NCBI GenBank assembly: GCA_963924555.1
Contig: OZ004596.1
Location: 3,668,139 to 3,732,138 of the forward strand
From: Crambe crambe
Taxonomy: Eukaryota > Porifera > Demospongiae > Poecilosclerida > Crambeidae
Direction of reading: 5' to 3'
Length of the DNA: 64,000 bases
Below are positions 22,629 through 48,183 of this stretch, in pieces (the stretch's first letter is position 1; every line of letters starts with the position of its first letter). Made by a program: the position numbers and the translations under genes. The notes under the pieces were generated by a model that saw only the letters and a list, made by a program, of their open reading frames with translations, made no database searches and was not told the origin of the DNA.

Positions 22629-23950
22629 GAAGTTATGATTTCATAGATGGTGCTAACATGCTTCCATGACTTATAGCTGGCTACAGGAATGACTGCAGCA
22701 AACTTAAAAGTTTTTCAGTGAGAGGGTGGATCTAGCTACTTGGGTACCAAGGCACGCCCCATGGCTCTGCGCGCGCACGTCCACTTTGCGCAGCTGGTTC
22801 ATGCTGGTCCAATAACAAGAACTTTGGAAGAGGACTGGATCGGTGTCATTGATTGTATTAAAAGCATACTATGCCAGGCTAGTACATTATCTGTCTGGCA
22901 TACTTCGTAAAGCTACCACTTAGCCCCCATACTTAGCGGCTATTATCAGGTTAAGTACTATAAATTTTATGTGGTACAGGGTCTATGTTATGTTTGGATC
23001 TAGCAGAAAGAAGTTGTCATCATATACTGTTAACATGTAGTCATCAGTGGAGTAGAATGGAGCACATTTTAATTAGCTACAAGTACGTTTGTTTTAATTA
23101 ATGATATCCACGATTAAGTATCAGGCCGTCCCATGGTGGGGAAACCTAGGACCATTCTAGACTTGTGCAGCTGCTAATCAGATTCATAGTAAACCAACGA
23201 ATTTATCCATTCTACCGATCCATTCAATTATGTTTGTGATCTGTATACTTTATTTTTGCACAGTCAGTTGTATAGTCTGTGATGTCAGCCCTGATCTCTA
23301 TTTCTTCTCTGACTGTGTAATCTGACTCATCAATCTAAATATGGCAGCATAGTAGTAAGGGTTGCCCATGACTAAGTGTTGACATAAACCTGTATGACTT
23401 GACTGCTGTAACCAGACAAGAGAAATGAGACCTACACATGCCCCTCCTGTCTGTAGCCATTGGGAGCTGTGCACAAGATACACAGGTACACAAGTAAGTG
23501 TATAGTGCCAAGAGAGTACACTTCCAGGTGTAGCTAGTGTAGGGTTGGCTGCTTGGCAAGATCTCATTAGACTGAAATGTTTTTGTGGTAAATTTGTCAG
23601 TGGTAGACTGGCAACAGTAAGTGTGACGTCACTGATGTGCGTATAAGTAAATGATTTGTCTAAAGAAATGGTTTGTCGTCTCTTTTGGCATATATGTCAA
23701 CATTGAGTGGGGGGAGAACGACATGGTATAAGAGATCATTAAACGTATCTTGGAAACAAACTAGGTTCTGGTTGGATACGTATGTAAGTATAGTTGGACC
23801 ATCAGTTCAAGAGTTTTGTTTGCCACTAAAAACCCTATTTTGTGTATTCTGCACTGAAATATTAATTTTTTTTTTCCACTGGGATAATAATAGGTCCTTG
23901 TGTAAATTAAAGTGGATGACTGTGATAAATGTGCTGATAGACAGGACTAC

Positions 23951-24684: not shown

Positions 24685-27133
24685 ATGCATAAAGTCTTCC
24701 TCCTTCTTCAGTTCTTGCAGGTACTCAATGATCAGTAGTAGAATTTTAGCGTCCTTCCCCACCAAAACTCCATAGGCCCAAAAGAAATAATTTTTGCTAG
24801 GAATACCCCTGATGCATGTCCATTGAGTATGCTTATCTACACTGCATGACCATTATGTAGGTGTTACCATTGATTTGTGGGGGACCTCTGTATGCTGGGA
24901 ATAGTGAGGATGTAGTTCCAGCTAACGTCAACACAAATGATGGAGCAGTGCTACGATCCAAAAGGCAATCGGGCACTAGAGACTGGATAGTTTCTGCCTT
25001 CTCACAGGTCAGTTTCTTTACACAATATAGATTTTAAGAATTTATCCTCATCCTGTAAATTTTTATACATCTTTTTGCAGTGCTCAGTTACTTGTGGTGG
25101 TGGATTAAGGACTCGATCAGTGCGATGTCTTGATGAAGATGGAGTCATTTCCAGTGATTGCAGTCCTAATAGACCTGTCAGTTTTGAATTCTGCAACCAA
25201 ATCGACTGTGTGACAAATAGTAAGCTTTCCACAATAGAACTATAACAATAAGACATGAACTGGTCAATCCCTAACCATTTAAAGGAACAACTGACCAAAT
25301 TTCAGTATTCAAAGCATTACAGAACAACTGAATGTTGACCAAACTCTATAGCTGTTGAACTTTAGCACTCAAGCCTCTTTCCTAGTCGGTTATAATAATT
25401 ATCAAGTATTCTTTACTTGTACAGATCCTGATTCCAGTCTCCTTCCAGCAACTGATAGTTATAACTTTAACAACCCTGATGGCTCTAGGTCCATCATTCA
25501 ATTTGAAAATCAAGGCTCTGGTGACTACAGGATTCAACAAAACACCACAGAATCAGATGGTGTCCTCACTTCCGTCGATCAAGACAGTATGAGTACACAG
25601 ACGAGAATTCAAACTTCTGGAGTCGCTAGCAACATAAATATTCAACCAATCGGTGATGATGACTTTGCCTTATTGGTGGATGGAAATAGCATATTGAACT
25701 TTAATATTGATCGCTTTGTGGAAAGTAACGTTGGGAATGGACAGACAGTCACTTACCAAAACAACACACTTTCTATCCTCAATGGTGATACTGTGAATAA
25801 TATCAGCATGTTCACTTACTATGATGGTTTCCGTTTTTATCAGTTCAATGATACAAAGATAAATCCACTGAGTGGAAATGGAATGCTGTTCTATAGCCCC
25901 GATTCAGGAATGGCTGTCTATTCCATCGACCCTCAGTTCACTTCTTTTCTCAGTACAATGGTCAGTTCACTTCGGAATGAATCATCTACTGAAATGTCTC
26001 CCAGTGTTCCTGTCGTTACTACAGGAATTGTATTTCCAACTGTACCAACAATCACATTCATTATACCGCTAAGCAGTGCTCCTGTGCCAACAGTTACACC
26101 TGCACCTACTACTCCACAACCACCTGGGACTACTGCTGACCCAGTGACTGCCGATCCAGCAACTACTATTCCTCTGCCACCAGCAACTACCGGCCAGCAA
26201 CAACCAGCAACTACCGGCCCGCAACAACCAGCAACTACCGGCCCGCAACAACCAGCAACTACCGGCCCGCAACAACCAGCAACTACCGGCCCGCAACAAC
26301 CAGCAACTACCGGCCCGCAACAACCAGCAACTACCGGCCCGCAACAACCAGCAACTACCGGCCCGCAACAACCAGCAACTACCGGCCCGCAACAACCAGC
26401 AACTACCGGCCCGCAACAACCAGCAACTACTGGCCCACAACAACCAGCAACTACCGCCCCGCAACAACCAGCAACTACTCCAGAACAAGGAGTAAGATCT
26501 ACAGCTGAGCCTACTGATCATCCCTCTATGCCCAGTAGTACTGATGAACCAGATGGATGTGAAACAAGGTCAAAGTCATCCGATCGTTCGAAAACTTCGA
26601 AAACCCATCGTCATTCGAAGAGCCATCGTCATATGAAGAGTCATCGTCATCATCACCATCACTCCAAATATCGAACTCATTCTCATGAAGATAAAACAAA
26701 GGAATGTAGCCCCAAAGTGAGACCACAACCAGTAACCACTGCTGAACAAGCACCGTCCACAGCTGAACCTACTGATAGATGCAAAGTAATGTCAAAATCA
26801 TCCAGGTCTCATGGTCACTCCAAAACTCGTCATTCCAAGCACCGAAGTCGTTCCCGTAGGGATGTCTCAGATGAATGTAGTGAAGAAACTGGTACCGAAG
26901 TAGACACCTCTCCTCACCTTCCTTCTCTCCCCAGTGTTGTTATCACAAGTGCACCAAACGAACGTTCCAGATCACGCTCGCGTGGAAGCCGTGGAAGGAA
27001 GAGTCGTAGAAGGAAGAGTCGTGGAAAGAAGGGTAAGAGAAAGAGCAAGCATCCCAGTTCAAAGAGTAGGACAAGTAAAAAATCTAAAAAGAGTCGCAAG
27101 CCAAAGAAGAAAGGTCGACGCTACTATTGGTGA
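24685..27133 (+). CDS. secreted TSP1 protein with new module, mucin-like repeats and polybasic tail (cluster gene A)
   Basis: Exons 24685-24720, 24861-25007, 25081-25219, 25425-27133 give 676 residues. Signal peptide (MHKVFLLLQFLQVLPLICGG); furin-type site RSKR at 44-47; one TSP1 repeat (about 53-107; W-I-V-S-A-F-S-Q-C, CGGG, six cysteines); an unrecognised module (about 108-310) starting SLLPATDSYNF and closing with NPLSGNGMLFY and MAVYS; about twelve PATTGPQQ repeats (about 360-460); a His-rich stretch (about 490-530) containing HRHHHHHSK; a second Ser/His/Arg segment; and a Lys/Arg/Ser tail ending RKPKKKGRRYYW. Intron phases (0,0,1) equal those of genes B and C, so they are tandem duplicates. 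The function is unknown. The layout suggests a matrix or mineral-binding protein. Confidence 0.85.
26180..26478 (+). repeat. 24-bp coding minisatellite (PATTGPQQ)
   Basis: About twelve nearly identical 24-bp units (CCAGCAACTACCGGCCCGCA then ACAA) inside gene A. Synonymous positions are almost invariant, which points to recent expansion or homogenisation. Thr-rich repeats of this type are usual O-glycosylation sites. Confidence 0.95.
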
Positions 27134-27858
27134 AGTACATACGTATACCAGCTTGATTGCAATTGAGAACATGAACTTATTAAACAGTTAGATTATGTAG
27201 AATAGTTTTAAAAAATTTTCCTGATAGTTTACAAGTTTGGGTTTGCTGATAAGTTCTACCTTGGCTCATGTTTCGTTCTATAACTGCATTTTTTCCCTTG
27301 CTGAACACAAAAAGTTTCCTTATCCAAGGGTATCTTACCCCCCTCCAACTGATACTAGGCTACATTTCTTGTTTGAGGATCTCTGGTGGTGGCTAGAGCA
27401 CATCTCAATCAGGTTCAATCATAGGAAAGAGAGAGAGAAAGAGGTGCCTTGGTGGTTAGTGTGATGGGGGATCATTGTAAGTGTTTTCCTTTTTCAAAAA
27501 TACCTGGTGATGCTATTAATTGGTGAGAGAAAGCTGTGGGGATATTTTAGCACAACCTGCAATTGTCATTTGCTAATTGAACTGGCCTCATGCACTGTAT
27601 GATCTAGGTGCTACTTTATTATAATGCCACCTCATTGTGCAGGCCATACCAAAATTGAACAATACCTTTTTGTTGTAAATTAATCTGAGGACTGCTGTAG
27701 GGCAACTGCTGCTATATAAAGCACTGCACTTTCTTTCCATCAGTTCCAGCTTCGCTGAAGTCTTCCATCCTCCTCTGGATTTTTTTTCGTCCTTCAAAAA
27801 CTAAATTTCATTTGGAATTTTTTCATCCTTCAACTTTCTTCTCCAATCAACCATTATC
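27134..27858. other. intergenic between cluster genes A and B
   Basis: It holds the 3' UTR of A and the promoter of B. A short GA-rich stretch lies near 27425. No coding signal is seen. Confidence 0.6.
27713..27720 (+). promoter_or_regulatory. possible TATA box of gene B
   Basis: TATATAAA, 139 bp upstream of the gene B start codon and followed by GCACTGCACTTTC. Confidence 0.45.
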
Positions 27859-29751
27859 ATGTACAAGGTTCTTCTTCTGCTGTTGGTTCAGGTAAGTAAA
27901 TTGATGCTATTAGTAATGCAAGATTATTAGCAATGCAAGATTATTATTTTTATCTCTGATATAGGTGTTTTCGCTTGGTCTAGGAAGTCCTATTCCAGGC
28001 AAGGATTCTGCAATCTTCAAGAGGCAGGTACCAGACACCAACCTACAATGGACTCTTTCATCATATTCAGAGGTAAGTCAACTTTTTCTTCTTCTTCTTT
28101 GTCGTCGTCGTCTTCTTCTTCTTTTTTCTTTTCTTTTTTACCTGTAAATCTTTTTTTTTTTCTTCTGCAGTGTACGGTATCTTGCGGTGGGGGGTTAAAG
28201 ATCCGCTCTGTGCGTTGCTTGGATGCAGATAATGTCATTTCCCGTGGCTGCAATCGACTCGGTTATATGCCAGCAAGCTACAAATATTGCAACCAGGTTG
28301 ACTGCGTGACCAACAGTAAGTCATATCATAAGATTATCATGATTATAATTAGGAAGTAGTCTTGTAATTTTCTTTGCAAGCAACGAGCTCACTGCATATT
28401 CTGCAGGCTATACCCAAGTTTAAGTTTGCAGGCGATGATGTGACGGATGACTAGTCATTTCACCATTGCATGCAGCTGCATCAGGTGACTAGTCATAATT
28501 TTCACTGTTGCATGCAGCTGCTGCGCTGCTTAGGGTCTTGTTGCTTAGGGTCTTGCATGTTGCGTGCATATGCTTGCTTGCATGAACTTATGTTGCAGCT
28601 GATTAAGCAATTATCTATTACAAGTAAAAGTGTTGAACTTGCTTGTAAGGTGTACTATTATCATTTTGTGACCTTTGGCTATTGTCTTTTGGCAGACCAT
28701 AACTAACTAGCTTGTAACATTGATTTTGGTGACCTTGTACTTGGCGACCTTACTAGTCTTTTGTGTTTGGCCCGCCTGTTGAAACCGCTGTGGTAACACT
28801 TCCTTGTTACATGTAAAGTGTTGATTTTGTACGTCTTACTTAGTCCTTTGTCTCTGGCAGGCTTTGGCGGGCATGCTCTGGGCTGTAATTATTATAATAC
28901 AGCTAAGCACTTCTACTCCTCCCTCTCTTTCCTTCTCGTCCTCCCCTCACTCTTCCTCCTTTACCTCTTCCCCTCTCTTCTTCACTTCACCTTTCCTCAT
29001 CTTCCCTCCTCACCCTCCATCCTCACCCCCACTATTTCTCCATCACCTTTCCAAAGCTTTCTCCTTCACCCCTCACTCACTTTCTAACTTAGGACACTAT
29101 AGGCACTGAATCTAGGCACTGAATCTTTCTTTCCTCACAGATACAGACTCCAATCTCTATCCTTCATCTAGTGTCTACAATTTTGCAAGGACTCCTGCAG
29201 GACTTCATGCTGTCTTCCATTATCAAAATGAGAGCATGTTTCGACTTAACAACACTGAGTTTGATAACACCGTCACTGTCATTGATAAGGCCCTCACTTC
29301 TTCAGGTGAAAGGACCACTCTCATGGTCTATGGAGCCAACAACAGCATCACCTTCAAGACTACCAACAATGTTATTTTTCTTCAGGTGGATGGAGCTAAT
29401 ATGATGAGCCTGAATGGTGCTATACAAGTGAGCATTCTTATCAATCAGACCCTCTCGTATCAAGATAATGTTATCACAATACTTCATGGTGCTGTGCTGA
29501 AAAACATCACTATGCTTGTTTTCTACGACAGCTACAAATTTTATAGCTTCGATGGTGGCAAGATGGTTCCCTTGAAAGGCCCCGGGGCACTCTGCTACAA
29601 TCCTACTACTGGATTAGTGATTTATTCTACCATTACCACCTTCAATATTCGAATCAATGAAGTAATCAATTCGATTTTGGCTGGGTCTGGTGCCGGTGGT
29701 AACAACCCTATGGCTCCCACTGGATCTGGTGACGACATGATGTTGCACTGA
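27859..29751 (+). CDS. secreted TSP1 plus module protein, short form (cluster gene B)
   Basis: Exons 27859-27891, 27965-28072, 28171-28315, 29141-29751 give 298 residues. Signal peptide MYKVLLLLLVQVFSLGLGS; a dibasic site FKR at 29-31 (weaker than in its neighbours, no Arg at P4); one TSP1 repeat (W-T-L-S-S-Y-S-E-C then TVSCGGGLKIRSVRC); then a single copy of the module seen in A and C (SNLYPSSVYNF, ILHGAVLKNITML, FYDSYKFYSFD, PLKGPGALCY, LVIYS). It stops 30 residues after the module, so the Thr/Pro, His and basic tails of A and C are absent. There are several N-glycosylation sites (NES, NNT, NQT, NIT). It could be a tail-less interaction partner of A and C; this is inference. Confidence 0.85.
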
Positions 29752-30594
29752 TCAAGTCTGTATCAGAACAATTTGAAGGAACTGTTGCTTGCAAACTAAG
29801 CTAACTTTTTACACACACACGAAAGATAATTCTCCATGCTTTATGTTGTCTTGTTCATTTTATTGTTATCTGCTAGGAACATACACATGCAGAATACAGG
29901 TATTCTATTATTGAGAAAAACTATATGGGGAGGGGGGAACTGAGGGGAACCTTTAGCTAGTTGTTTGTTGTTGTTGTTTTTTTGTTTGTTTGTTTTTGTT
30001 GTTTTTTTTTTTTTTTAAGGGGATCTTAAACCACTGTATACATTATATTATACTGAGGGGGAAGGGTGGAGTTTTAGTTCCCTTAATAAGAATTGGTCAA
30101 TGGATGCTGATGCATTTATAGCCTTGTTCCCAGGCCTATTTAACATTGGGCCTGGCTAATGCTATACTATTTGGCTTGAGCATTCAAAAGTGTATATACA
30201 TGGTTGAGTCATGAATGAAGGGTGCTTAGAATAGTCGTTAGGCAAGCATTGGCGATATCCTGTGGTTTGCTTAGTCTATTCCAATATCCTGTGGTTTTGA
30301 TTACACTCAAATATTGGAATGTATTCTAGCAACCCCTCCTTTCATGCTGACCACTTCTATTGATTGGTGCTTGGCTACTTTGAGGGAGTCAGCCAAACCA
30401 TATACAGCTGCTAAATGACATAATGCATTGACCTCTTCAGTACTTAAAGGCTGCATTTCTTTGCATTTTCACCGTCAGCCAAAGCTTAACTTATCTGCAA
30501 TTCTCCGATTCTCTCTTTCAGTTAGCTGTTTCATCATTAGTCAGAGATCTTTTTTCTCACCAACTGAATTCATCAAAGAAAGAAACCACTAATC
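29752..30594. other. intergenic between cluster genes B and C
   Basis: It holds a T/G-rich homopolymer-like stretch near 29960-30016. No gene was recognised. Confidence 0.6.
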
Positions 30595-32525
30595 ATGCTC
30601 CAAATCTTCCTACTACTAGGAGTAAGTCAAATTTCCAGTAACTATGTTGGAGTCACCTGCTATAGCTACCAGGCAGACCGATCATTCTTTCATGATAACT
30701 GTAGGTACTAACCCTTGGAAATTGCGGAGTTATATATAGCAGAAGTGTTTCATCACTGGAAAATGTGGCTTCTCTTGATCGATTCAGACGGATGTCAAAT
30801 GGACAGTGGAATATTTCAGATTTTTCAGAAGTAATTAACTTACACTAATGGCATGAAAGCAAGAAGGGTTAAGCTACACGATTCACCTTCCCTTTAATTT
30901 TAGCCACCTCCACAGTTAAAACAGTTCTCTCTGCAATGGCCTGCATGGCTATATGTATTATATCCTTTCAGTGTTCTGCTCCTTGTGATGGTGGATTGAA
31001 GGTTCGTTCAGTTCGGTGTTTGAATGAGGATGGAGTCATCTCTGAAAACTGTACCTATGAGAACAGACCTGCTAGCTATGAATTCTGCAATCAGATTGAC
31101 TGCACAACCAGAAGTAAGCACCACACATGCACAGATTAACTACCAACCCTAACAATACAAGCATGGACTAACTACGTGCAGGACAACAGCATAGAACTGC
31201 ATGTGTTTAATGTGGTAATGTATAATTTGTATGTGTGCAATTGTATAGGTCCTAACTTGAGTCTCCTTCCAGCAACAGGCACTTACAACTTCAATATCAA
31301 CGATGGGTCAACTGCTGAAGCTCAGTTTGAAAATCAAGGTTCCGGGAGCTATAGAGTCGTCCTTAAAAGCACTGAATCAGACAACACCACCACCACTCTG
31401 GATGTCAGAGTCACACCCATGGGCACACAAACTCGTGCTACAATTTCTGCAGCCAGTAATAATATCCGTTTTGCCAAGCATAATGATATCACATCATTAC
31501 TTGTGGATGGAGAAGAGATTTTGAGTTTGAACAATGCTGAATCTGTTAATATACCAAGCATTAAGAGCCTAGAATATAAGGATAAAAAGATATCCCTTGA
31601 TGGTGTTTCTCTGGTTAAAAATATCACCATGCTCTATTACCATGATGGTTTTCGATTTTACAAATTTGAAGGGAGTATTGTAAACCCTTTGAGTGGACCT
31701 GGAACTCTATACTATGATCGTATCAATAACAGGGCTTTGTACTCCATTCTACCTGATCTAAACACACAGCTGGATCGGGAAATCCAGTTACTTCAGAATA
31801 GAGGAGCCACTGATGTTAATCCTGAAAACCCGGGAGGACTAATTTCCACCACACTGCCTTTGCCAGATGTCCCCACTACTGCGCCACCACCGCCAAGTCC
31901 AACCGACTTGACAGCAACATTAATAATAACAAATGCTCCTGTTACTCCAGCTTCAACAAATGCTCCTGTTACTCCAGCTTCAACAAATGCTCCTGTTACT
32001 CCAGCTTCAACAAATGCTCCTGTTACTCCAGCTTCAACAAATGCTCCTGTTACTCCAGCTTCAACAGATGAACCTGACACTGAAGAACCTGAGACTGAAG
32101 AACCTGAGACTGAAGAACCTGATGTCGACTGTAATACTGACAGCTCGAGAACATCAAAGAAGACTCATTCTCATTCCAGGAAGTCACATTCACATTCACA
32201 TCCACATTCACATTCCAAGAGTCGCTCCATGAGTGACGATTCTGTGGAAATGGATGATAAGTGTGAATCTGCTACAAAGAAAAAACACACCTCCAAGACC
32301 ACTTCCAGGAAGAGTCCTAAAAAGAAAGGGAAGAGTCCCAGAATGAGAGGGATGACTCGTGGAAGCAAGAGAGCCACCCCTAGTACTCCAGAGATGTCTC
32401 CACGAGGTTCCCAAACAAGAAGCATGCCAGAAAGATCTCCACATGAGCATAGTCATCGTCACAGGGGGAGACACTCTATGCATCGCGGAGGTGTACGTTC
32501 CAGGAAATCCAGCAGAAGAAATTAG
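30595..32525 (+). CDS. secreted TSP1 plus module protein with His-rich and polybasic tail (cluster gene C)
   Basis: Exons 30595-30621, 30705-30830, 30972-31113, 31249-32525 give 523 residues. Signal peptide MLQIFLLLGVLTLG; furin-type site RFRR at 35-38; one TSP1 repeat (Q-W-N-I-S-D-F-S-E-C, CDGGLKVRSVRC); the module (SLLPATGTYNF, SLVKNITMLYY, GFRFYKFEG, NPLSGPGTLYY, RALYS); five copies of NAPVTPAST; an acidic EEPETEEPETEEP strip; an alternating Ser/His stretch (SHSHSHPHSHSKSRS); and a Lys/Arg/Ser/His tail ending in SRKSSRRN. Module and TSP1 are closest to gene A by eye. The acidic strip beside basic and His-rich blocks gives a strongly zwitterionic tail. Confidence 0.85.
31930..32065 (+). repeat. 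27-bp coding repeat (NAPVTPAST)
   Basis: Five near-perfect 27-bp copies (AATGCTCCTGTTACTCCAGC then TTCAACA) in gene C. The sequence differs from the gene A repeat, so the two Thr/Pro regions expanded independently. Confidence 0.95.
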
Positions 32526-32946
32526 AGCGATATCTGGACTTAGGACCAATTATATAGTGTGATTTCAGTCTTGTATAGCAGACATTTATTATGATTGTAC
32601 TCTTTTGATATTTTGCTGATGATACAACTATAGAAACATTTCACTTTGTGAACCAAGTGTTGAGTGTGTAGTGTGAACCATGTGCTAACATATCTCTGAT
32701 GATCTGAACCATGTGCTAACATATCTCTGATGATCTGAACCATGTGCTAACATATCTCTGATGATCTGAACCATGTGCTAACATATCTCTGATGATCTGA
32801 TAAGGAGACTGATGTTTCTAACATGTTCTCTGAGTGGTTGCATGCGCATTACTGCCTTCAGTAGCTATTTTAAAAGATGTTGCACTTCTATATAGCCATA
32901 AACTGTAACAGAGATATCTCTGGTGGCTATTTGCAATCAGTCAGTC
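32526..32946. other. intergenic between cluster genes C and D
   Basis: It includes the tandem repeat at 32675-32798 and a CTATATAG motif near 32888, about 60 bp upstream of gene D. No gene is seen. Confidence 0.6.
32675..32798. repeat. 31-bp tandem repeat, four copies
   Basis: Four almost identical copies of GAACCATGTGCTAACATATC plus TCTGATGATCT, placed just after gene C. Confidence 0.95.
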
Positions 32947-34626
32947 ATGATCAAAATACTAATTATTGTGTTGCAGCTACTACAGGTAATTATAGAGCCA
33001 GTTAAATAAAATTTCAAAGCTATATATTATACAGCTGGTTGTATTATCATGTTTTCAGGTGCAGAATTATGGTGGACCTTTTAAACAATGTGCTGCTGAG
33101 AAATATCCAGGCATGTTATTAACATTAGCTATAAATGAACACTATATAACTAGCTATAAATGAATCTCATTGCTATATAGATTTATATATGACCTATGGC
33201 ATTGCTTCTTTCTCTTCTTACAGTACCTACTACTGCTAGCAACAAAAATCAGTTCGACAAGCAGAAAATGAGAAACATGACAGAACCAGAAATGCATACT
33301 ACTCCTGCGGGCAAAGGGAATCACCATATGAATCATCTGAGTTCTGTGATGGGAGAATTTGATACCCAAATCAAGGAAGATGAAATCAAAGGCAACAATC
33401 ATCGTCGTTATCATAGAACTAAACGATCCGATCCTCTCAGTGAGAGATTAACATTTCAAGTGACCCCCCACACAATTGCACAAAAGTTCACACTACATAT
33501 CAATAATGGTCATGTGTTCCTCCTTCACAAAGAGAAGTGGATCATAGACCTGACAGATCCTGAAAAAATCGAACTCACAATTGGTGATACTGTGTGGTAC
33601 ACAAACAGGGTTATCTCCATTTCTTTTGGTGTCAAGGAAGTGAAATATTTTCCAGGAATCAGTACAATAACCGTCTACAATGGAACTCATGTTTATACAC
33701 TGACACCAGAAGCCTATCTTGTTGCAGTGGATGGAGAGCTTTTTGTGAGTGGGGGGAAAGCCTTCTACTCTAATAGTTCTCAATTCAATGAGCTGCTTAA
33801 CTATAAACTTAGGGGATTGTATTCAGCTGTAAACCAAAAGGATCCGATAGAGTTTAGAACTATTATAGGAGGAAGCAAGAAGCTTTGGATTGACAGTGTT
33901 CCTGTCATCATTCTCACCAATGCTGAGTTCAGAAAAATCTCCGACCATCAAAATTTAGTGTACAGAAGCAATATCTTACAGATCCAGGATGTCCTGGACA
34001 GTGCAACAAGAGAACTATTTCCAGGGATAGAACAGATTTTTCTTCTGAACAGATTAATGGAAGGACTTAAAAAGCACACACATATGAGAGTGAATGAGAT
34101 TACTGGAGGGGGACATCTGTATATTCACAAGGCAACTAACAATGCTTTTTATTCACAGGATCCAAGGGTTAACAGAAGGATTGTTGAATTCCTTGCATAC
34201 CTAATGCTACCATCTGACTACATTGTCTTTTCACTACAATATGAGCTGAGGAATAGAAAAATACCAAGCATAGCCATATTGGCTAATGGAAAGAAGGTAT
34301 TACGACTGTACCCAAATGAAGTTATCGGTCGAAGCATATCACCTAAACATTTTATAGCATATGGCAATAATACATTGTATGTTATGGAAAGTGACAAGAT
34401 ATTAGGTCTTATCAAGACTGTTTATGAGATTCTCTTCTATGATGAAAGAAATCTAGTTTCCTTCAGAGCTTCTTCACGAGAAATTCCAGGTGGTGGTCAG
34501 TTATTCATCAGTCGAGGCTTAGGAATCTATTCTCTTGATGCTCACCTTAATGATAGGATAGGGAGTGCCCTTGTCACCGCTGGGGACTCTGCACCTCCAA
34601 TTCATCCACCAACCAAAAAAGAATAG
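32947..34626 (+). CDS. secreted multi-module protein without TSP1 (cluster gene D)
   Basis: Exons 32947-32985, 33059-33110, 33224-34626 give 497 residues. The second intron uses a GC donor (GCATGT); this is the only choice that keeps phase. Signal peptide MIKILIIVLQLLQ; a furin-type site RTKR at 95-98 after a His/Met-rich propeptide (MHTTPAGKGNHHMNHLSS); then about three diverged copies of the cluster module, each closing with a Gly/tyrosine motif: LFVSGGKAFYS, GGGHLYIHKATNNAFYS and GGGQLFISRGLGIYS. There is no TSP1, no Thr/Pro repeat and no basic tail. It links the single-module genes A-C to the large gene E. The module copies are too diverged to call with certainty from reading alone. Confidence 0.8.
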
Positions 34627-35095
34627 CGGTTTCTTGGTGTTGCATTTATTTTAGTTAATGTGTATAACAACAACAACAACAACGATAATAACAATAAAGT
34701 CAAAACAATTATTATCTTAATATCTTTTGTGGTTATCAACGTAGCAAACAATAAAGACAAAGAGCTGGCAACCATACAATCATATTTTGACCAAAATACT
34801 GAAATTTACTAGTATAAAGTGACTGAAATGAGGGCAAATCAAAGTTGACAGGTTGGAGGCACTGGTATAATAAAGCTAGAGCTAACATCATGGGGCAGAC
34901 TGAGAGCTATACTGCTTACTGATTTGTGTCGTGGATGGAGCGACAAGCGCGGAGTTGGCCGGCTAAAATGCGCATGCGTAGAAATTATCATCAAACCATT
35001 CACGAGCTAAACAATGGTGAAGGCGGGCGCCCCTCCGGCAGCTATACTCGCGTCCTAGCGCCTTGCTAACCAGATGCAGCTACGCCGCAGCTGCA
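34627..35095. other. intergenic between cluster genes D and E
   Basis: It contains a short (AAC)n run at about 34665-34682 and an unusually GC- and CpG-rich stretch at about 34935-35090 just before the gene E start, which may be its promoter. Confidence 0.55.
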
Positions 35096-38000
35096 ATGAC
35101 CCTTGCTAAGATGCTGTGTTGCGACGTCTTGATCGTAAGTTTTATTAGATATCATAATATTATGGGTGGTAATAATTACTGCATACAGGTCCTCGTATTG
35201 ATTGCCAATGTTCACGCATTTCATGTCGAACCTGTTGAGGTGGAGGCTGAAGGCAGAGTGAGTTAGTAATAATACAACAATAATAATTGGTGGAGGAATT
35301 CATTATAACATGTGGTCATGGTGAATATTAATTGTAACTGGCTGCATTACAAAAACCTATTATACTGGAATACGTTTATTGGGGACTATAGATGTGCTAG
35401 CCAGCATATTTGATATAATGATTTGGCAAATTGGCACCTTTCTCAAATTTAATTATCCACAGCAAGTCAGGTTGCACAACCTTCACATGCACCTTTCCAT
35501 ACTAATTGGTAAAGGATCACGAAATGCCCCACTCTAGGGCTTTAAATATAGAAGAGCCAAACCAGAAAGCATTTAAATATTGAAGACCCTTACCCAATAC
35601 ATGTATTGAGTGACAGCAGTGATAATCATTACCAAAATACAGTGGCGTGGCCGGGATTTAAGGTAAGGGGGTATATCTGGGTGCAAAGTGCCCGGAAAAT
35701 TTTTTGTGTGCCACACCCCCTAAAACTGTATGTGGCTACGCCCACTAATGTCGACCTTAGACCTTTTTACGAATGTTGCATCGAAGTTAGTGATCAATCT
35801 AGCTTAGTCTCGCAGGCCCGCTAGCTAGTGACTGACAGATTAGATACATGTAGTGCAGTTCAGCTAACAAAGGGGATGCTCGAGCACCCTGTCTGGCTAC
35901 GCCACTGCTATTACTAGGTTAGCATCTTGAATCTACAAGGTTTTCTACTTATAATGATAGTGGCAAAGTTACGAAGCTAAAATGGCAGGATTTAGCTATT
36001 CTAGCTAGCTTCACTGTATGCATAAATCGTGTGTTAAAACATACAATGCATGGGTGAATCCAAGTCTATGGTGCACTGAGTTGAAATCAAGATAATTAAC
36101 ACAGTTGGACTGCTTTTGAGAACATGCAATTCACAGTAGATCTACATATGTATGGTGGTGGAACTTCTGAAGATAAAGGACACACTGATATGAGGGACAC
36201 CAGTTTGGGAAAATGAACATTTGGGACCTTCTTTTATCGGAGGTTCCACTATATTGGTATAGGCCACATGGAAGGTTACAGCCTTGTACTCAAGGATCAC
36301 CCTGACCACCCACCACCACTGTAACTGCTATGTCTCTCTAAGTAATTGAAGAATGGCAAATTATTTATTGCATCATAATTATAAGTACTACGATCATGGT
36401 GCATGGCAGGCTCTCTTTTCCATCTGCCTGAATTCATAATGAGGCTACACAACAACAGCATGTTGCTTATCCAATAAGAATTCATATTTGAGTATGCTAG
36501 TTAGTTTATATTTGCAAGCATCTGGCCTACCTTACACTACTCTCTGCTCTTGGATTTTCCGTACAAAGCTTTCATATCTGACTAGCTAACTTTAGTACTA
36601 CATTTGAAGCCTTTCTAAGCTCACTGAACTATCTCTGCACAGCAATGGCTGATCGATCATGCTTGTATTGGGTAAGGGTCACTGCTATTAAGAAATTACA
36701 TAGTCCGTATGTACGTGACGTCTAATTACGTATCTAAGGGGGGGGGGGAAATGGCATTCCGTTTCGTTGAACTCTCAGTGTTTGCTGGGCAATGGCTCTG
36801 TTATGACACTAGTAAGCATTGAGATGGGAAGAATGAAGCTCTAGAATTCGAGTGCATGTAAGAGCAGAAACACTACACATTACATTATTTAGTTTTTCTA
36901 CTTGGTTTTTTTTTTTTTGAAAATTTAGGAAAAGAGGCAAACAGTAACAATACAACTTCGTTTTCCAGTCCGTGGACCTGAAAAAGCAACCTTCCTCGTC
37001 TATAATGATCGAGAGCTTGTACAGCTTACTGGTCGGAATACAGATAGAATTGATGTCACGTTTAATCAAACAGTCAGCTGTGATCTTGATGGTGCGAATC
37101 CTGGGGATCGAAGTGTGACAATAGTACCAGATGGTATGTCATTTCCTGGTATCAGCGAGTGCAGTAGGATAGAAGGATTTCAAGCTGAAATATTCACACG
37201 TGATCAAATGTTTTCTGGCCCTGGAGTTCTATACAGGGGTCCAAATCGTGCTCTATTCATTGCAGCTAATAGCGATCGAGTATCTGCACTTATTGAAGCA
37301 AATAGACCAAACTTCCCTACACCTATTGAACCAGTTGAATCCATTTTTCATACGGTAATGAATATGTATTTAGTCTTGAACAATGACAATACAGATGCTC
37401 CTGATGGAGTACCCGACTCAGGAGATAGTAGCATTGTCTTGACAGGCTCTAATTGCATGAACTTGCAAGCTGGTGACGCAGTGATTTATCTTGGTGGTAC
37501 AATCAGTATTCGTCGTGGATCAACCCAGCTTGACAGTCAATGTCCTGCCAGTGGTATTGGAACTCTGGACGCTATAGAAACCACTCGAGTTTTCGGAGTA
37601 GAGTGCCAAGTTCTAACAAGGGTTGAGAATTCGTTATCTCGTGCTCTCTCTGGACCAGGCTTACTTTGTTGTGGTGATCGGGCTACTAGTGGTGGTCAAA
37701 CAGCTTTTTTTACAAACTATGGTAATCTGGTCAACCAAATTAACCAGCGTGTCGTTCAGGACCAGCTTTCAGCCAGTACAGATGCAGGTGGCACTGTCAC
37801 CATTAATAGAGTCCTCGAACCCAATGCTGGTACACGACTCGTCACTCTAAATGGTGCGCAATCTTTGAACTTTCCTACAGCAACTCAGGTGATACAGAGC
37901 AGTGGTGTCGTGCAGATACAAAATTCAAATGGTGACATCATCCAGGTGTTCATGTGTTTTGGAGTTGGTGTTTCTTTAGCTGCTTTTACTTCCAATCAGG

Positions 38001-40527
38001 TATCTTTCTCTGCAAGTGGCAACTTAGGACCTTTAAATATTCCTGGAGGTGGTCTCAGCATGGAGTACAATCCGTCCAATTGCAGCGTGTTTGTGTACCC
38101 AACACAGCAATCCAATGTCGGTCAATTTGTCTCACGTGCTAAATCAAATGTAACAGTTCCTTCTGCTATCAGTTTTGGTGCTATGCCAGACGGATTTGGC
38201 GGTGTCATTCTAACTGCCAATGGCAATGCTGTCTTTGGGGCTTCCACGAGTAGATCGTTTCCAGTCGGAGAATTCCAGACTCTGATTTATCAAGGGATGA
38301 ATTTAAACATCCAGAACATCAGAATGGGTGATGTGACACCAACTATGTCGTTTAGTGGGGTCCAAATGTTCACAACGAATACAGGTTCCAATCGGCTGGA
38401 AATGTTTATGGAATCTGCCGTACCGTCCACAAGTGGTCCGGGCACACTCTATGTTGATGATCGGAATAGAGCATTTTTCACCAACTCTGCGAGCCTCATG
38501 ATGTTCATCCAGGATTCCATCAGTAGCAGCATAGGAGTGCCTATTAACATAGGGGGACAAGATACAATAGAATTGAGCATTGGTGGTAATAACCTATTCA
38601 CTTTTGATGATAGTTCTACCTTACGGCCTTTTATTAGAGATCAAGGCTTCGCATACCAATCCAATACCATAGCTAGATACAATGGTTTCTCTACTCCGTC
38701 TGGATCTACTATCCAATATTTTAGTGACCCTGGCTTGCTACGAGTTATTGACAGTGGGGGTAATTTAATCAGGGAAGAAAGTAATGTTAATTCTTTGCTG
38801 AGGCATGATGGTAGAGGAATGTTCCCACCAGTTTCAGTGAACTCCACTTTTTCTGGTGGAGGCACGTTCATGAATGGATCAATGTCGCTTATTTTTCTAC
38901 CGAATAACTTAGTTGGACCTGGATTTCAAAGACTGACTATGCTTGGTGCCCTTACATCTATAGCCAGTGGTGTTGGCACACTTGTCGCCAACATTGGTGG
39001 TCGCACTCAAACCTTTATGGGAGGAAGTCCAACTGGTGTCTTTAATGGTCCTGGTTCACTCTTCAGTTCAAATGAAAGCTACTTCTTCACTACTGATGAT
39101 GAGTTTATCACTAGAATCATGCAAGCTGTTTCAAATTTGAGACCAGTAACTACTTTCTTCAATCGTACGACTGGCTTAATTCAGGTCATTTCTGGAGGTC
39201 GGGAGATTATAGCGATCAATCCCTCATCTTCTCGTACGATTTCTACATCAGACAGTAGCACAGTTACGATAACTGGTGGCATTAATGGTGGGAATATCTC
39301 CATCGATGGAAATTTCATATCTGGTGGGATCAGGAATTTCGTGTTCAATGATGGCATTACATACAGGACTATTGACTTTACCGTGCCAGGTGAGATGTTC
39401 AGCTTTAGAGGAGGTGGTGGAATGATAATTTTAAGCAATGGAATGGGATTTTTTTCATCTGTCCCCTCCATCACCCAACGTATAATGTTTGGAATAAATG
39501 AAGCTGGCAACGCCGTAGTCCCTCCTGTGATCCCCACGCCTTTTCCTGCGTCTTTTGTTTCGAAGGAAAACCTGGTCGATACTAGGATTGGACAGAGTGC
39601 GATTGTATACCAAGGAGCCGATGTCAACATTGATTGCAGTGCTGGGGCTGCTTTGCCCCCTGCTTCCTTTGCTTTCTCTGTTCGGCCGGCTGTTCCAAAC
39701 AATACATTTCCATTTGTTCCCCTGAACGAGTCAAGTGATGTCATATTCACGAGTAGAGTTAATGGTCTCACAGTAGGACTGCAGAATCTGAGAACAAGTG
39801 ATATGTGTGCTGATATCCAACGTATGCCTAGTAGAGAATACAGGTGTACAGCGGCCAATTCTGCTGGCAGTGCATCTGGATCTACATTTATCACAGTTCG
39901 ATGCAGAGGTATGATCACCTGACTAGTACTATTACGATAACTTATTGCTTTTTTTTTCTTTTCCATTCAGACAATTTTACAGTAATCAGCAACTTCCTTA
40001 TTCCCCGACGATATCCAGGGGAACCAGTGGTAGTAGCTCGTACAACCGATCCACAAAAGATCCGTCCAATTTTGCCTCCTATTAGTGGTACAATTGCTGA
40101 CACGTCCCTTATCACTACCAACTTTTCTGTGGGGTGTGCCACTGCTGGGGGAAGGCCCAAGGCCAGTTTCAATTGGTTCGAAACAGTGGACACAGGAATG
40201 CGTGTGCCAGTCAATTTCTCAAACCCAAGATATACCATGACTTCAGGGTCGCGGCAAAGTATTTTGCATGTGAGCCTGACCAATAGGACGACAGATGTTT
40301 ACACATACACATGCGAAGCCAGTAATGGTGGAGTAGCACAACTTGCAACAGCAAGTGTGTGCCCTGAACGTAAGTTCTGCAAACAAGCAAACAAGAGCAA
40401 GGTATACATATTATATCTGTTGCTGTTGTTGGTGTGTAGGTTACGACGTAGAAAGTGATATGTTTACTCCTGTTGGAGGTTGTTCAACCACCTGTGGATT
40501 AGGTAAGTTGATACCAATAATCTAATT

Positions 40528-40596
<69 letters not shown>

Positions 40597-43500
40597 CCTA
40601 TAATATGTGCTGTTATAACTTTGAAAGCAGTAGCACATAATATACACTGCAAATACTTGAAACTCACTACAGAAGTATAGCCAGTTAGCTGAAATAGTCC
40701 TAAGAGAGTACTCAATGGTACCTCATAGGTGGTGGAACAGGTCAGGCCAGTCAGGCCCAGGCCTGACCAATATTTTTGGGGGGAAAATTATTTTAAAATC
40801 AGTAGCTATCGATCAATAACAAGAGAAAGTATCCTATGATGCCCAAATATAGCAAATTGTTGAACTGGGGGATTACAGGCCTGACCAATCAAATCTTGCT
40901 TCCAACACCTCTGTACCTGGTAATAATTATGTCAATGGTGTGTTTGCAACCTTTCCTTCTTCTTCTGTGTCACAAACAAACAAACAAACAAACAAACAAA
41001 CAAACAAACAAACAAACAAATATGTTGGTTCTGGTAGAGTTATTAGCTATGTGAACTTATTGTGCAGGTCTTCAACAGCTAATTCCCAATGTTCAAGTGA
41101 CGAGAGCAGGGGCCACTATGCCTATAGCACCCATGGATTTCTTCAATTTAGTTCCTGCAGGACTATACAAGACAAGAGTAATTTTTTGTGAAGGTGGATC
41201 TGCTCCATGGTCAGTGGAATAGCTAGAATGTTGGCATGTACAACAGAGCATTTTGTGGTCCTCATTTGAAAAAATAATGGTATGGAAGAACAAAGCTCTA
41301 GAGAGCAGTTAACATTATTTACTGATTTTTTCTACTTGGTATGTATGTAATGTTTGGCAAGATCATGACATTTTCTGCTGTACATTCCCACAGTATTGAA
41401 GATTCCTTTCAATTTGTGACAGGAGAATTTGGTAATTGCTCTCAACCATGCGATGGAGGAGTCAGAAACAGGAACGTTTCTTGTGTCCTTTTCAACGAAG
41501 GGATGCAATCTAACCAGACTGTGGAGGAGGCTAGGTGCACCATGCCCAAACCATCAACTTTTGAGGCTTGTAATGAGATCCCATGTCCAATATATTCTGT
41601 TACTGGGAACTTTGGTGAGGTGAGTAGAACTATTATTTTGGGTGAGTGAAGCGAGTCCACACACCAATCAAAGTACCGCAATGTCACAGGATGTGTACAT
41701 CCATGCTTTGTGGAATGATCATGTATGTATGTACAATTCAAAATAATGGCCAGGATACAAAGTTCAATCAGTAATTCTCTCCCTTCTCACCACACCACCT
41801 GGTACCACCAGCAGCAGAACCTGACTCTCTTCTAGGAAGCAGTACATAGGTTGTAGACTACGGTTGAGAAAGCAGCTTCTGAAATTTTAAGCTATTGGCT
41901 AGCTATCATTCTTCTTTGGCTTGAGTGTAGAAACTTGTGAAGACTTAGAGATCTGGGCATGGAGTACAAGAAATGCTTTGCTATGCTAATGCTAAGTGAA
42001 CATAACCCCAGTGTTATTTGTGTGAGAACTCTGAGATATAATCAATGGCAATTTGTTAGTTCTTGCTATTGAATGATCTTGCTCATTGGAAATCTCTTAT
42101 GACTATACAAGTTGTGTCACAGTAAAGAGCACAATGGACATCCCACTCACATGAAATTAATTATCAAACTTCTGACACACTTGGGTCCCAGCATTTTGTC
42201 CTTCATATACAGAGAGGTTGCCCTATTTATTTGTATAAGTTTGTTGAGAGGTTTGTCCTCTTTCAGAGTGTCCTTTAACAGAGGTTCACTGTTAGTACTT
42301 GTTAATGCTATTTTTATCAGTGAACTTATTGTTAGTGTTCTCGAACCTGTGGAAATGGAATTAGGAGTCGCAACGTTATCTGCATCCAACCTATAGTCAA
42401 TGAGACAACAGGAGATTTAGAATTCGACACTGAAATGGATATCGATTTCTGTACCAACTTCAGTAGGTCTCGATCTCCTGACACTACTGAGCCTTGCAAG
42501 ATTAGAGATTGTCCAGTCAGATACCAACCTGGAGCTTATGGTCCTGTAAGTTTAACTGATAAGAGTACATAACTTGCCCAACCTCTTTACTGTTCTTTCT
42601 GTAACACTCCTTTTACAGTAATGTATGCATGTGTGTAAGCATTGAATTGAAATGACAGATCATTTCACGGGCTATAAATGATCCAGTGACAATATTGCTA
42701 GTATCATTCTTTTTTATTTCCCTGTACAGTGTGGCATTGATAGATGTCAGGAGAGAAGCGTCTCCTGTAGATTCTTTGATGAACACTTCCCTGCGGAAGA
42801 TTGGCCAGCACCTATGGAACTCTGTGTTGAGAGGGGTCTTGGTCTCCCTAATTTAGTGAGGAGTTGTGACGGCGGTGTCTGCTCCCGTGGCCAATGGAAT
42901 GCAGTGCCAATGGGGGTGAGTTTAGTAGGTGAAACCTCTCTTATCTAGTTGGTACAGGATCAGAGGGTTCCTGTACTTGGGATAATGCCTGTAGCTAAAC
43001 ATTTTTCATTAAAAGTAGCAAGTGAAGAGGGTCTACGTAATACTTGGACCATCTCAGAGTTATGTCTGGCTAGAGAATCTCATTGGCTGCAACATACTGC
43101 TGCTTACCTTCCATATGGCCACCACTGTAATACAGTGGAACCTCTAAATGCGGACACCTTTGGGACCAGTGAAAAGTGTCCTGATTAGAGAGGTGTCCCT
43201 ATTTCAGGGGTTAAATTATACACATTTATATTGTGTTGGGAAAAGAAAAAGTGTCCTGATTAGAGAGGTTTTTGCATTTCAGGGAGTCCACATTTAGGGT
43301 TTCCACTGTATACCTCTGCAACAATCCTTTTCGAGAGGGAATAACTTTTCACTTTCTGCTGTGGTGACCAGCGTAACAAGATAGGGTTCAAAGGTCATGC
43401 AACAATGAAAGGTGCCCATATAAGAGGTTCCACTCTACATAGCACCATTACTAAAATAGCCAGCTACCATTCATTAATTTGCACAAATAAATTATTTAGC

Positions 43501-43533
<33 letters not shown>

Positions 43534-44063
43534 GTCCTGCAGTGCAGCATGTGGCTTCGGACTTCAACAACAAATTGTGACTTGTTATTTAAGTAATGTT
43601 ACCAACATCATAAATGATGGATTCTGTGATTCAAGAACTAGACCAAGTACAATGACCAGATGTTTCCTACGGAATTGCCCAGGCGAGTTATTAAGGTGGG
43701 ATACAAATGCAGAATCTTAAAATTCATGGTTTTTAGGTATACCACCACCTTAAGTTATTGTTTTGTTTGTTTGTTTGTTATTAATTTTGTTCTCTGTGTG
43801 TGCCAATAAGGTAGTCTAGCTGGGTTTCATGTATGTAATACAAGAAATCCAGTTAACCTTTTGACCTTAATAATAACAATTATTATAGCCTACAAAACCT
43901 GGATGAGATTTTTGCATTTATTCCCCTAGGCCGTTGTGACTTTGAGCCAGGTGCGTGTCCGGTCATAAGAGCAATGGGATGTAAGAATTTTCCCATCATT
44001 GCAACGGGTTGCTGCAAGAGCTGCCCCTTACAAGCCACACCCATCCCACCACTTGTAGTTTGA
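35096..44063 (+). CDS. large secreted protein: about seven modules, two Ig-like domains, TSP1-like repeats (cluster gene E)
   Basis: Exons 35096-35134, 35189-35257, 36929-39908, 39971-40369, 40440-40502, 41068-41193, 41423-41619, 42336-42545, 42730-42915, 43535-43682, 43930-44063 close in phase at 1516 residues. Signal peptide (MTLAKMLCCDVLIVLVLIANVH); furin-type REKR at 36-39, across an exon junction. One 2980-bp exon carries about seven module copies (about 40-900), marked by SGPGVLYRGPNRALF, SGPGLLCCG, GGGLSMEY, SGPGTLYVDDRNRAFF, FSGGGTF, NGPGSLFSSNESYFF and GGGGMIIL. Two Ig-like domains follow (about 905-1160; YRCTAANSAGS, YTYTCEASNGG). Next come four or five TSP1-like repeats (CSTTCGLG, CSQPCDGGV, CSRTCGNGIRSRNV, CSAACGFGL) and a short Cys-rich end (CDFEPGACPV, GCCKSCPL). 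Intron 10 has a GC donor (GCGAGT). Intron 1 spans four bases to no codon loss: it is a 54-bp, in-frame intron. Confidence 0.85.
35640..35907. mobile_element. hAT-like MITE copy 1
   Basis: 268 bp with inverted ends CAGTGGCGTGGCCGG on the left and CTGGCTACGCCACTG on the right. It shares the internal GGAAAATTTTTTGT and an ACGCCCAC block with the element at 60230-60494. No open frame for a transposase. It lies in the large second intron of gene E. Confidence 0.7.
40531..40591. repeat. (GA)n microsatellite, 60 bp
   Basis: A pure GA run in a gene E intron, 28 bp after the exon 5 donor. Confidence 0.97.
40727..40910. mobile_element. short inverted-repeat element, copy 1
   Basis: The ends AGGTGGTGGAACAGGTCAGG and CCAACACCT (complement AGGTGTTGG) form a terminal inverted repeat. 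An internal pair, GGCCTGACCAAT, occurs twice. A second copy lies at 63596-63769. It is in a gene E intron and is non-coding. Confidence 0.75.
40971..41020. repeat. (CAAA)n microsatellite
   Basis: About twelve CAAA units in gene E intron 5, ending 48 bp before exon 6. Confidence 0.95.
43131..43310. mobile_element. Tc1/mariner-like MITE
   Basis: 180 bp bounded by TACAGTGGAACCTC on the left and TTTCCACTGTA on the right. Inside, AAAGTGTCCTGATTAGAGAG is repeated. The ends match those at 10234-10403 and 45474-45606. It lies in gene E intron 9. Confidence 0.75.
43500..43532. repeat. (ATT)n beside an acceptor
   Basis: The ATT run leads directly into the acceptor TTAAG at 43534 of gene E exon 10, so the splice site has an unusual purine-interrupted tract. 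Confidence 0.9.

Positions 44064-44213: not shown

Positions 44214-48183
<3,970 letters not shown>

Follow-up and report, generated by a model that had tools for sequence, protein, structure and literature searches.

Background

The published His-rich silica proteins are described as combining a conserved folded part with a variable, sometimes absent, His-rich part (PMC10772126, PMC10282587). Perisilin, a silica-associated hexactinellid protein, is secreted as presented in PMC10772126, and its folded N-terminal domain is followed by a variable His-rich C-terminal tail, which some members lack; perisilin-like sequences are reported there in demosponges. Glassin, a silica-directing hexactinellid protein, is according to PMC10282587 encoded by a single-exon gene, and its His-rich repeats, next to a conserved C-terminal part, differ from species to species. 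In diatom silaffins and in sponge silintaphin-1, the latter described as a PH-domain protein, low-complexity Lys- and hydroxyl-rich stretches are thought to act on silica (PMC3820600). The calcarins of calcareous sponges are described as tandem, duplicated skeleton-matrix genes encoding galaxin-like proteins for calcite (PMC12419799). The account in PMC10772126 attributes demosponge skeletal diversity to silicatein isoforms and not to several unrelated silicifying proteins.

Organization of the gene cluster

The window, which is the whole 64,000-nucleotide stretch of Crambe crambe DNA analysed here, contains five consecutive genes (A to E), all on the + strand and spanning 24685-44063. Their models were made by hand:

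24685-27133, + strand: gene A, 4 exons, 676 aa; leader, propeptide ending in RSKR, TSP1 repeat, exon-4 beta domain with one module, mucin-like linker and polycationic tail (GT-AG splice sites, Pfam)
27859-29751, + strand: gene B, 4 exons, 298 aa; leader, TSP1 repeat, exon-4 domain with one module, no tail
30595-32525, + strand: gene C, 4 exons, 523 aa; layout as in A
32947-34626, + strand: gene D, 3 exons, 497 aa; leader, propeptide ending in RTKR, three modules, TSP1 absent; the model of its second intron, as GC-AG, is uncertain
35096-44063, + strand: gene E, 11 exons, 1531 aa; leader, REKR site, about seven modules, Ig-like region, TSP1 repeats and Cys-rich C-terminus (exon model, with GC-AG splicing as in D; Pfam)

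The first-pass annotation had read these genes as consecutive, in one direction and each with a signal peptide. The hand-built models bear out the layout, and hydrophobic leaders, judged by eye, are seen on all five; the products are probably secreted. A basic site, weakest in B, follows an intron in the leader. This phase-0 leader intron is common to all five genes (exon 1 measures 36, 33, 27, 39 and 39 nt in A to E), a stronger feature than the first-pass annotation had made of it. As independent support, another assembly probably holds counterparts of B, C and E together: the close matches to C (97% across 80% of the query region), to E (100%, rounded, across 94%) and to B (almost identical by eye) all come with the same longest contig, of 1,566,784 bases. 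Among the top-ranked papers listed (for example 20 of 166, or 10 of 495), no title or abstract start concerns the A-E proteins.

TSP1 repeats and the C-terminus of E

Outside the module, A, B, C and E match PF19030 (TSP1_ADAMTS) over its cut-off of 23.8 bits:

24984-25209, + strand: A TSP1_ADAMTS repeat, across intron 2 (PF19030, 44.8 bits)
28049-28305, + strand: B TSP1_ADAMTS repeat, across intron 2 (PF19030, 36.2 bits)
30807-31103, + strand: C TSP1_ADAMTS repeat, across intron 2 (PF19030, 45.2 bits)
41394-43682, + strand: E exons 7-10, TSP1_ADAMTS repeats in three stretches (PF19030, 96.8 bits for the whole protein)
43930-44063, + strand: E last exon, six-cysteine C-terminus, PLAC-like by eye

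A, B and C have one repeat each, and the earlier claim that these are of the same type holds at the Pfam cut-off in all three. E resembles ADAMTS-like proteins and papilin in its TSP1_ADAMTS repeats, in an Ig-like region whose I-set match (20.4 bits) lies below the cut-off of 23.7, and in its six-cysteine C-terminus, which we take to resemble a PLAC domain given a cysteine spacing similar by eye. However, E has no spacer or Kunitz match in Pfam at E<=10 and its last exon no match at all at that level, PLAC included; it carries about seven of the modules described below instead. At the same level, gene D has no Pfam match, and no CAP domain is found in A-E (A and C searched without their tails).

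R-spondins and ADAMTS-like proteins dock to sulphated glycans through TSP1 repeats and basic tails. The main rival to the reading we prefer below, and a real possibility, is that A-E are ordinary polyanion-binding matrix or signalling-modulator proteins of this kind, with no mineral role, as the repeats in A, B, C and E, several of them in E together with the sub-cut-off Ig match, would suggest. The module, which has no Pfam match to the ADAMTS spacer, argues against it.

A shared module across the five genes

The module, of about 110 residues, occurs once in A, B and C, three times in D and about seven times in E. Beyond the cluster, it was found in a fourth, tailed copy (A'), dispersed on another contig (C10), and in two divergent relatives, P0002 and P0005, the latter sequence beginning inside the module.

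25640-25975, + strand: A module; 132 bits against the joint profile, which includes it
29350-29679, + strand: B module; 129 bits against the joint profile, which includes it
31467-31796, + strand: C module; profile match, AlphaFold2 fold
33490-33822, + strand: D module 1; A-B-C profile i-E 2.7e-8
33853-34206, + strand: D module 2; A-B-C profile i-E 8.3e-7
34246-34584, + strand: D module 3; A-B-C profile i-E 8e-7
36986-37285, + strand: E module 1; 8.4 bits, profile without E
37427-37756, + strand: E module 2; 14.5 bits, profile without E
37829-37936, + strand: E module 3, degenerate; -1.5 bits, profile without E, alone not significant
38180-38533, + strand: E module 4; 30.1 bits for residues 462-569, profile without E
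38558-38722, + strand: E module 5, only its first half; 3.8 bits, a score that shuffles also reach
38954-39139, + strand: E module 6, second half; 5.5 bits, a score that shuffles also reach, rising to 13.5 when E module 4 joins the profile
39158-39502, + strand: E module 7; 16.8 bits, profile without E

It had been proposed that a profile of the A, B and C modules should recover those of D and E. Indeed, this profile gave three matches in D (54.5 bits, against 11.7 for the best of 500 shuffles of the D module part) and 14.5 bits in E (best of 500 shuffles of the E module part, 5.4). When a profile free of E (members A, B, C, D modules 1-3, P0002 and P0005) was run on E, seven spaced segments totalled 86.4 bits, the best of 1000 shuffles reaching 8.2. 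Four of these seven segments stand alone, above the best shuffled domain (7.1 bits); those at 5.5, 3.8 and -1.5 bits are weak. Profile-profile comparison of a group formed by P0002, C, A, A' and B gave P=5.2e-9 with D and P=1.3e-9 with six E segments; D against E gave P=1.5e-5. The closing motif, first written as [SGN]G[PNG]G-x-L-x-Y, is real but looser than that: across 11 aligned rows one G is invariant, and the G two residues before it and the L two after are nearly so.

The first-pass annotation could match the module to no domain, and no Pfam family reaches its cut-off there when A-E are searched (A and C without their tails). Matches below cut-off were GBD_IRG7_N on C, before the module (17.5 and 16.4 bits, cut-off 27), DUF3060 on B (14 bits, cut-off 23.1) and DUF6383 on E (9.4 bits, cut-off 23.7). 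Predicting the fold of one module had been suggested as a check; for that of C, AlphaFold2 returned a compact domain of 12 strands and a C-terminal helix (pLDDT 93.5, pTM 0.87), and this predicted fold has no confident PDB match, with a PH-like barrel as a tentative candidate for its core. Because it is confidently folded in prediction and has neither a Pfam family over cut-off nor a confident PDB match, the module is a candidate new domain family.

Duplication history

A, B and C share intron phases (0,0,1 in the hand-built models, as previously read), TSP1 type and exon-4 domain and are therefore duplicates, in agreement with the first-pass annotation. Its further proposal, that one module-bearing ancestor expanded here, agrees with the module and leader intron shared across A-E; "here" is incomplete, since A' lies elsewhere. 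The order of the expansion is not fixed by the module tree, because only one of its nine inner branches, the A/A' pair, is well supported. The first-pass annotation also suggested that the five may act together outside the cell; no shared 8- or 9-mer was seen within 400 bp upstream of the genes, and the absence of such a hint of co-regulation also counts against the reading preferred below. The calcarins are likewise tandem duplicated sponge genes, but galaxin-like and for calcite; we liken the two by description.

The exon-4 domains have diverged to 31% (A-B), 43% (A-C) and 34% (B-C) identity. Such tandem duplication and divergence, along with the cationic tails described below, would fit secreted defence or recognition proteins, whose tails act on microbes and whose modules diversify for self/non-self recognition. 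However, all four parts tested give a dN/dS below 1 between A and A' (0.23 in the module domain, 0.53 in the tail), so no diversifying selection is seen between the closest copies; these substitutions suggest constraint on both module domain and tail, and we regard a defence role as improbable.

Linkers and polycationic tails

The most informative functional clue, absent from the first-pass annotation, is the composition of the tails:

25979-26542, + strand: A P/T-rich linker, tandem GPQQPATT-type repeats (ORF translation)
26543-27130, + strand: A polycationic tail, 196 aa, 39% K/R/H, pI 11.2; two Cys-flanked basic blocks (by eye)
31797-32114, + strand: C linker, P/T-rich then acidic, with NAPVTPAST and TEEPE repeats (ORF translation)
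32115-32522, + strand: C polycationic tail, 136 aa, 36% K/R/H, pI 11.4

The tails of A, C and A' follow mucin-like linkers and have 36-39% K/R/H and pI 11.0-11.4. Among the 133 ORFs of the window, A ranks first (0.44) and C second (0.41) for the most basic 80-aa stretch. By eye, the C linker differs in repeat number from P0001. Module, P/T/E linker and basic tail recur in both relatives: P0002 (42% identity to C) has a tail with 35% K/R/H, and that of P0005 (152 aa) has 30% His, 8% Cys, only 7% Asp and Glu together and, by eye, four HDH motifs. No TSP1 was matched by Pfam in P0002 or in P0005, which starts within the module.

Three comparisons with the described systems follow. As in perisilin (PMC10772126), a folded part is joined to a variable tail absent in some members, here B; however, perisilin is described with a CAP/GLIPR1-like domain, whereas TSP1 and an unrecognised module are found here, with more Lys/Arg in the tails. 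The His-rich segment of glassin recalls, by description, the His-rich P0005 tail, but glassin has a single exon and a C-terminal conserved part, and the genes here are multi-exon. Low-complexity, Lys- and hydroxyl-rich stretches are a feature in common with silaffins and silintaphin-1, but silintaphin-1 has a PH domain, and four of the five tails show no enrichment in silaffin-type K-x-x-K spacing, which speaks against a role in silica: the lysines so spaced (10/29 in A, 4/16 in C, 7/18 in A', 0/10 in P0005) are all within shuffle range, and P0002 (8/14) is borderline, 59 of 1000 shuffles reaching that value.

The His content is modest in A (9%), C (10%), A' (5%) and P0002 (4%), which also tells against silica, as do the scarce Asp and Glu of the P0005 tail and the lack of a TSP1 match in P0002 and P0005. 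Lys/Arg exceeds His in these four tails, as would be expected of the polyanion-binding proteins considered above; the P0005 tail, with 30% His, is not typical of heparin-binding segments. Basic tails bind glycosaminoglycans, nucleic acids and membranes as well, a further point against the silica reading. The His clusters in the A and C tails, and the His and Cys of P0005, would also suit metal-binding or cross-linking matrix proteins that take up Zn, Cu or Fe, whether to harden spongin or as a metal store. We consider this rather unlikely, since the A' and P0002 tails are so low in His that what is conserved must be basic charge and not the binding of metal.

Silicatein-like exons in the same genome

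Silicatein has Ser in place of the papain Cys. Two of the seven regions examined contain a cysteine-peptidase exon with this replacement, and two loci of the same genome thus carry silicatein-like exons, at exon level, in favour of the silica reading; against it, the 13 cathepsin-like loci with a visible active site all have the ordinary Cys. A search of one open-access library for silicatein, thrombospondin and spicule together found no paper, and one may be in print elsewhere.

A possible role in the siliceous skeleton

The long, strongly basic, His-containing tails recall glass-sponge silica proteins and make A and C candidate skeleton-matrix proteins. We tentatively favour, as short of probable, the reading that A-E are matrix proteins of a demosponge, anchored by their folded parts, with polycationic tails that bind spicule silica or nucleate it, in the manner of the unrelated His-rich silica proteins of glass sponges. 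The leader would be removed and the product then cleaved at the basic site. The folded part (TSP1 and the beta-rich module, or the module strings of D and E) would bind other matrix molecules or itself, while the mucin-like, partly acidic linker would hold out a presumably disordered Lys/Arg/His/Ser-rich tail. This polycationic tail, present in A, A' and C, might bind silicic-acid oligomers and the spicule surface and aid silica deposition; the tail-less B, D and E could be scaffold or spacer partners.

More broadly, siliceous demosponges may, though we hold this with some doubt, add to silicatein a second set of skeleton proteins, which are secreted, combine TSP1 with the candidate new module and template peripheral silica with polycationic, His-bearing tails. 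Such a set, arisen by convergence, would be the demosponge counterpart to glassin and perisilin, and the view put forward in PMC10772126, that demosponges rely for silicification on silicatein and its isoforms only, would be contradicted. The A-E family would be a concrete exception to that view, and it allows tail composition to be compared across spiculate and spicule-less sponges. If the tails do act on silica, demosponges would share the glass-sponge strategy of a folded domain with a basic, His-bearing tail, reached independently.

Gene models of the cluster

Five neighbouring genes encode probably secreted proteins with a common module of about 110 residues. Their models were assembled by hand from splice sites and reading frames:

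24685-27133, + strand, gene A, hand-built exon model
27859-29751, + strand, gene B, hand-built exon model
30595-32525, + strand, gene C, hand-built exon model
32947-34626, + strand, gene D, hand-built exon model
35096-44063, + strand, gene E, hand-built exon model

The rebuilt first base of A and last base of E match the cluster limits in the first-pass annotation, and the intron phases (0,0,1) that it had assigned to A, B and C recur in our models. All five genes share a phase 0 intron within the leader coding sequence, exon 1 measuring 36 (A), 33 (B), 27 (C), 39 (D) and 39 nt (E). Judged against the furin cleavage consensus, a basic site lies shortly past the leader in A (RSKR), C (RFRR), D (RTKR) and E (REKR), and gene B has only FKR at the corresponding site. 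Exon 2 of gene D is uncertain in the model, as are two GC-AG introns (D intron 2, 33111-33223; E intron 10, 43683-43929).

Eight neighbouring ORFs were compared with Pfam; three had no match, and no recognised skeletal gene was found among the eight:

2032-2457, 11256-11924, 13460-14035, 19361-19786 and 44217-44474, Pfam-matched neighbour ORFs

The matches were to a SAP domain, a LANC-like protein, tuftelin-interacting and GCFC (these two below cut-off) and an AAA+ lid domain (minus strand). Directly upstream of gene A, the stretch 21276-22640 (minus strand) looks sulfotransferase-like by eye; the single piece of it that was searched (21849-22640) gave no Pfam match at E<=0.01. A long tandem repeat at 60386-61117, open in several frames with units FPFPSCVYMHI or PHVCTCTLP, is probably not a gene.

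A common module outside the domain libraries searched

In Pfam, A, B and C each carry one TSP1_ADAMTS repeat and E has three such stretches as well as an Ig match under cut-off, while the search with gene D returned no match. In the module itself, no Pfam family attains its cut-off (A and C being searched minus their tails); GBD_IRG7_N, DUF3060 and DUF6383 appear in or beside it below cut-off. NCBIfam gave no match to the module in the four sequences searched, namely the C domain and the related predicted proteins P0002, P0003 and P0005. No paper on the module was found among the open-access matches listed, judged by title or abstract start. The module appears to be undescribed in the libraries searched.

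A profile of the module-bearing domain that exon 4 encodes in A, B and C recovers three modules in D (54.5 bits; best of 500 shuffles 11.7) and also recovers E (14.5 bits; best of 500 shuffles 5.4), the shuffles being 500 per protein of the module part of D or E, with the best full score taken. A profile without E sequences scores 86.4 bits on E across seven spaced segments, the best of 1000 shuffles reaching 8.2 bits and the reversed sequence 0.2; singly, four of the seven segments exceed the best shuffled domain (7.1 bits) and three fall below it. Pairwise hhalign comparisons, made outside any database search, between three groups (P0002, C, A, B and the dispersed gene A'; D; six E segments) gave P values of 5.2e-9, 1.3e-9 and 1.5e-5. 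Because the profile and hhalign matches tie these modules together, the earlier count of one to about seven copies per protein stands, although three of the E copies are weak singly.

Relatives and a dispersed copy

Database searches recovered five different proteins (P0001 to P0005) from about 5.8 billion predicted proteins, a collection probably poor in sponges; in two of these searches scoring was confined to the 7986 and 7985 candidates with the most words in common. P0001, P0003 and P0004 are the counterparts of C, E and B, and we take them as the same cluster in another assembly because the longest contig listed with each (1,566,784 bases) is common to all three. P0002 (342 aa, 640-kb contig; 42% identical to C across 71% of the region used as query) and P0005 (371 aa, 87-kb contig; E 1.5e-9, 28% identity to P0002) are divergent relatives. 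The linker of C (31797-32114) has five NAPVTPAST repeats versus four in the 97% identical P0001, which suggests a linker length polymorphism.

In the genome that holds the cluster (143 Mb, 119 contigs), query C matched C, A, B and A' plus one row at E 1.82, and P0002 matched the same four plus two rows at E 1.07 and 7.27. Besides its own locus, gene D gave weak hits to the A' module (E 0.03) and the A module (E 0.06); the two queries from gene E, exon 3 and module 4, had no match beyond themselves. A' (L011, G000:C10:5093632-5097183) is complete, with four exons, a structure as in A and 547 aa. Its exon-4 domain has 88% amino-acid identity to that of A and its tail is shorter; it is a dispersed copy of the tandem family. 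Comparison of A with A' gave dN/dS (NG86) values of 0.10 (leader plus propeptide) and 0.23 (module domain). The values for TSP1 (0.56) and for the 98 aligned tail codons (0.53) reflect few changes, and gaps are frequent in the tail alignment.

Basic tails and a proposed role in silica deposition

Past the module, A, A' and C continue with P/T-rich repeats, an acidic spacer (in C) and a basic tail. The tails of A (196 aa, 39% K/R/H, pI 11.2), A' (103 aa, 38%, pI 11.0), C (136 aa, 36%, pI 11.4) and P0002 (35%, pI 10.7) contrast with the modules, where K/R/H is 4% in A, 6% in B and 12% in C. Among 133 ORFs of 80 aa or more across the window, A has the most basic 80-aa stretch (0.44) and C the second most basic (0.41); a repetitive minus-strand ORF comes third (0.35). 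Cysteines flank His/Lys-rich blocks, two in the A tail (26543-27130) and one in the C tail (32115-32522), so these cationic segments may be disulphide-closed loops.

By analogy, the family could act in silica deposition, a proposal we make tentatively because its layout resembles that of perisilin and glassin and because lysine oligomers promote silica precipitation. Perisilin joins a folded domain to a His-rich C-terminus that varies and is absent from some members (PMC10772126), glassin has His, Pro and Ser/Thr repeats that vary by species next to a conserved part (PMC10282587), and lysine oligomers by themselves stimulate the precipitation of silica (PMC3820600). The family matches this layout with TSP1 plus module as the folded part. 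Two observations count against the proposal: all the tails but that of P0005 are low in histidine, and the silaffin lysine code fails, KxxK spacing being not enriched in four of five tails and borderline in that of P0002 (reached by 59 of 1000 shuffles). Ordinary polyanion binding by the family is a somewhat less likely explanation; metal binding or cross-linking is improbable, and a role in defence slightly more so. In the C-terminal tail of P0005 (152 aa), His accounts for 30% of residues, Cys for 8% and Asp plus Glu for 7%. The protein ends in recurring clusters of His together with Asp, Thr/Ser and Cys, and of the family it may come closest to glassin.

Silicatein was sought among cathepsin-like exons of the same genome. 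Its signature is a serine replacing the active-site cysteine. Among 30 cathepsin-like loci examined, all 13 with a visible active site carry the ordinary cysteine and none a serine; seven further regions, hand-chosen from hits outside any defined locus, gave serine in two, cysteine in two and no active-site motif in three. The two with serine sit among arrays of cathepsin-like exons:

C15:865300-866600, cysteine-peptidase exon with Ser for the catalytic Cys (L048)
C9:8366600-8372600, cysteine-peptidase exon with Ser for the catalytic Cys (L050)

PMC10282587 also mentions this signature and reports one gene with it from a glass sponge, so that serine alone is no proof of silicatein. Both are candidate silicatein-like exons, known here as exons rather than full genes. 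The organism is taken here to be a siliceous demosponge.

In the family we observed leader-like N-termini, a common module, the predicted fold of one module, duplication and the composition of the tails. The proteins are probably secreted and their propeptide would be cut off; TSP1 and modules may anchor them in the matrix, and a presumably disordered tail would bind silica. As a whole, the sequences point to a matrix protein of a known kind, modular and ending in a polycationic tail, that would here be built on a new module.
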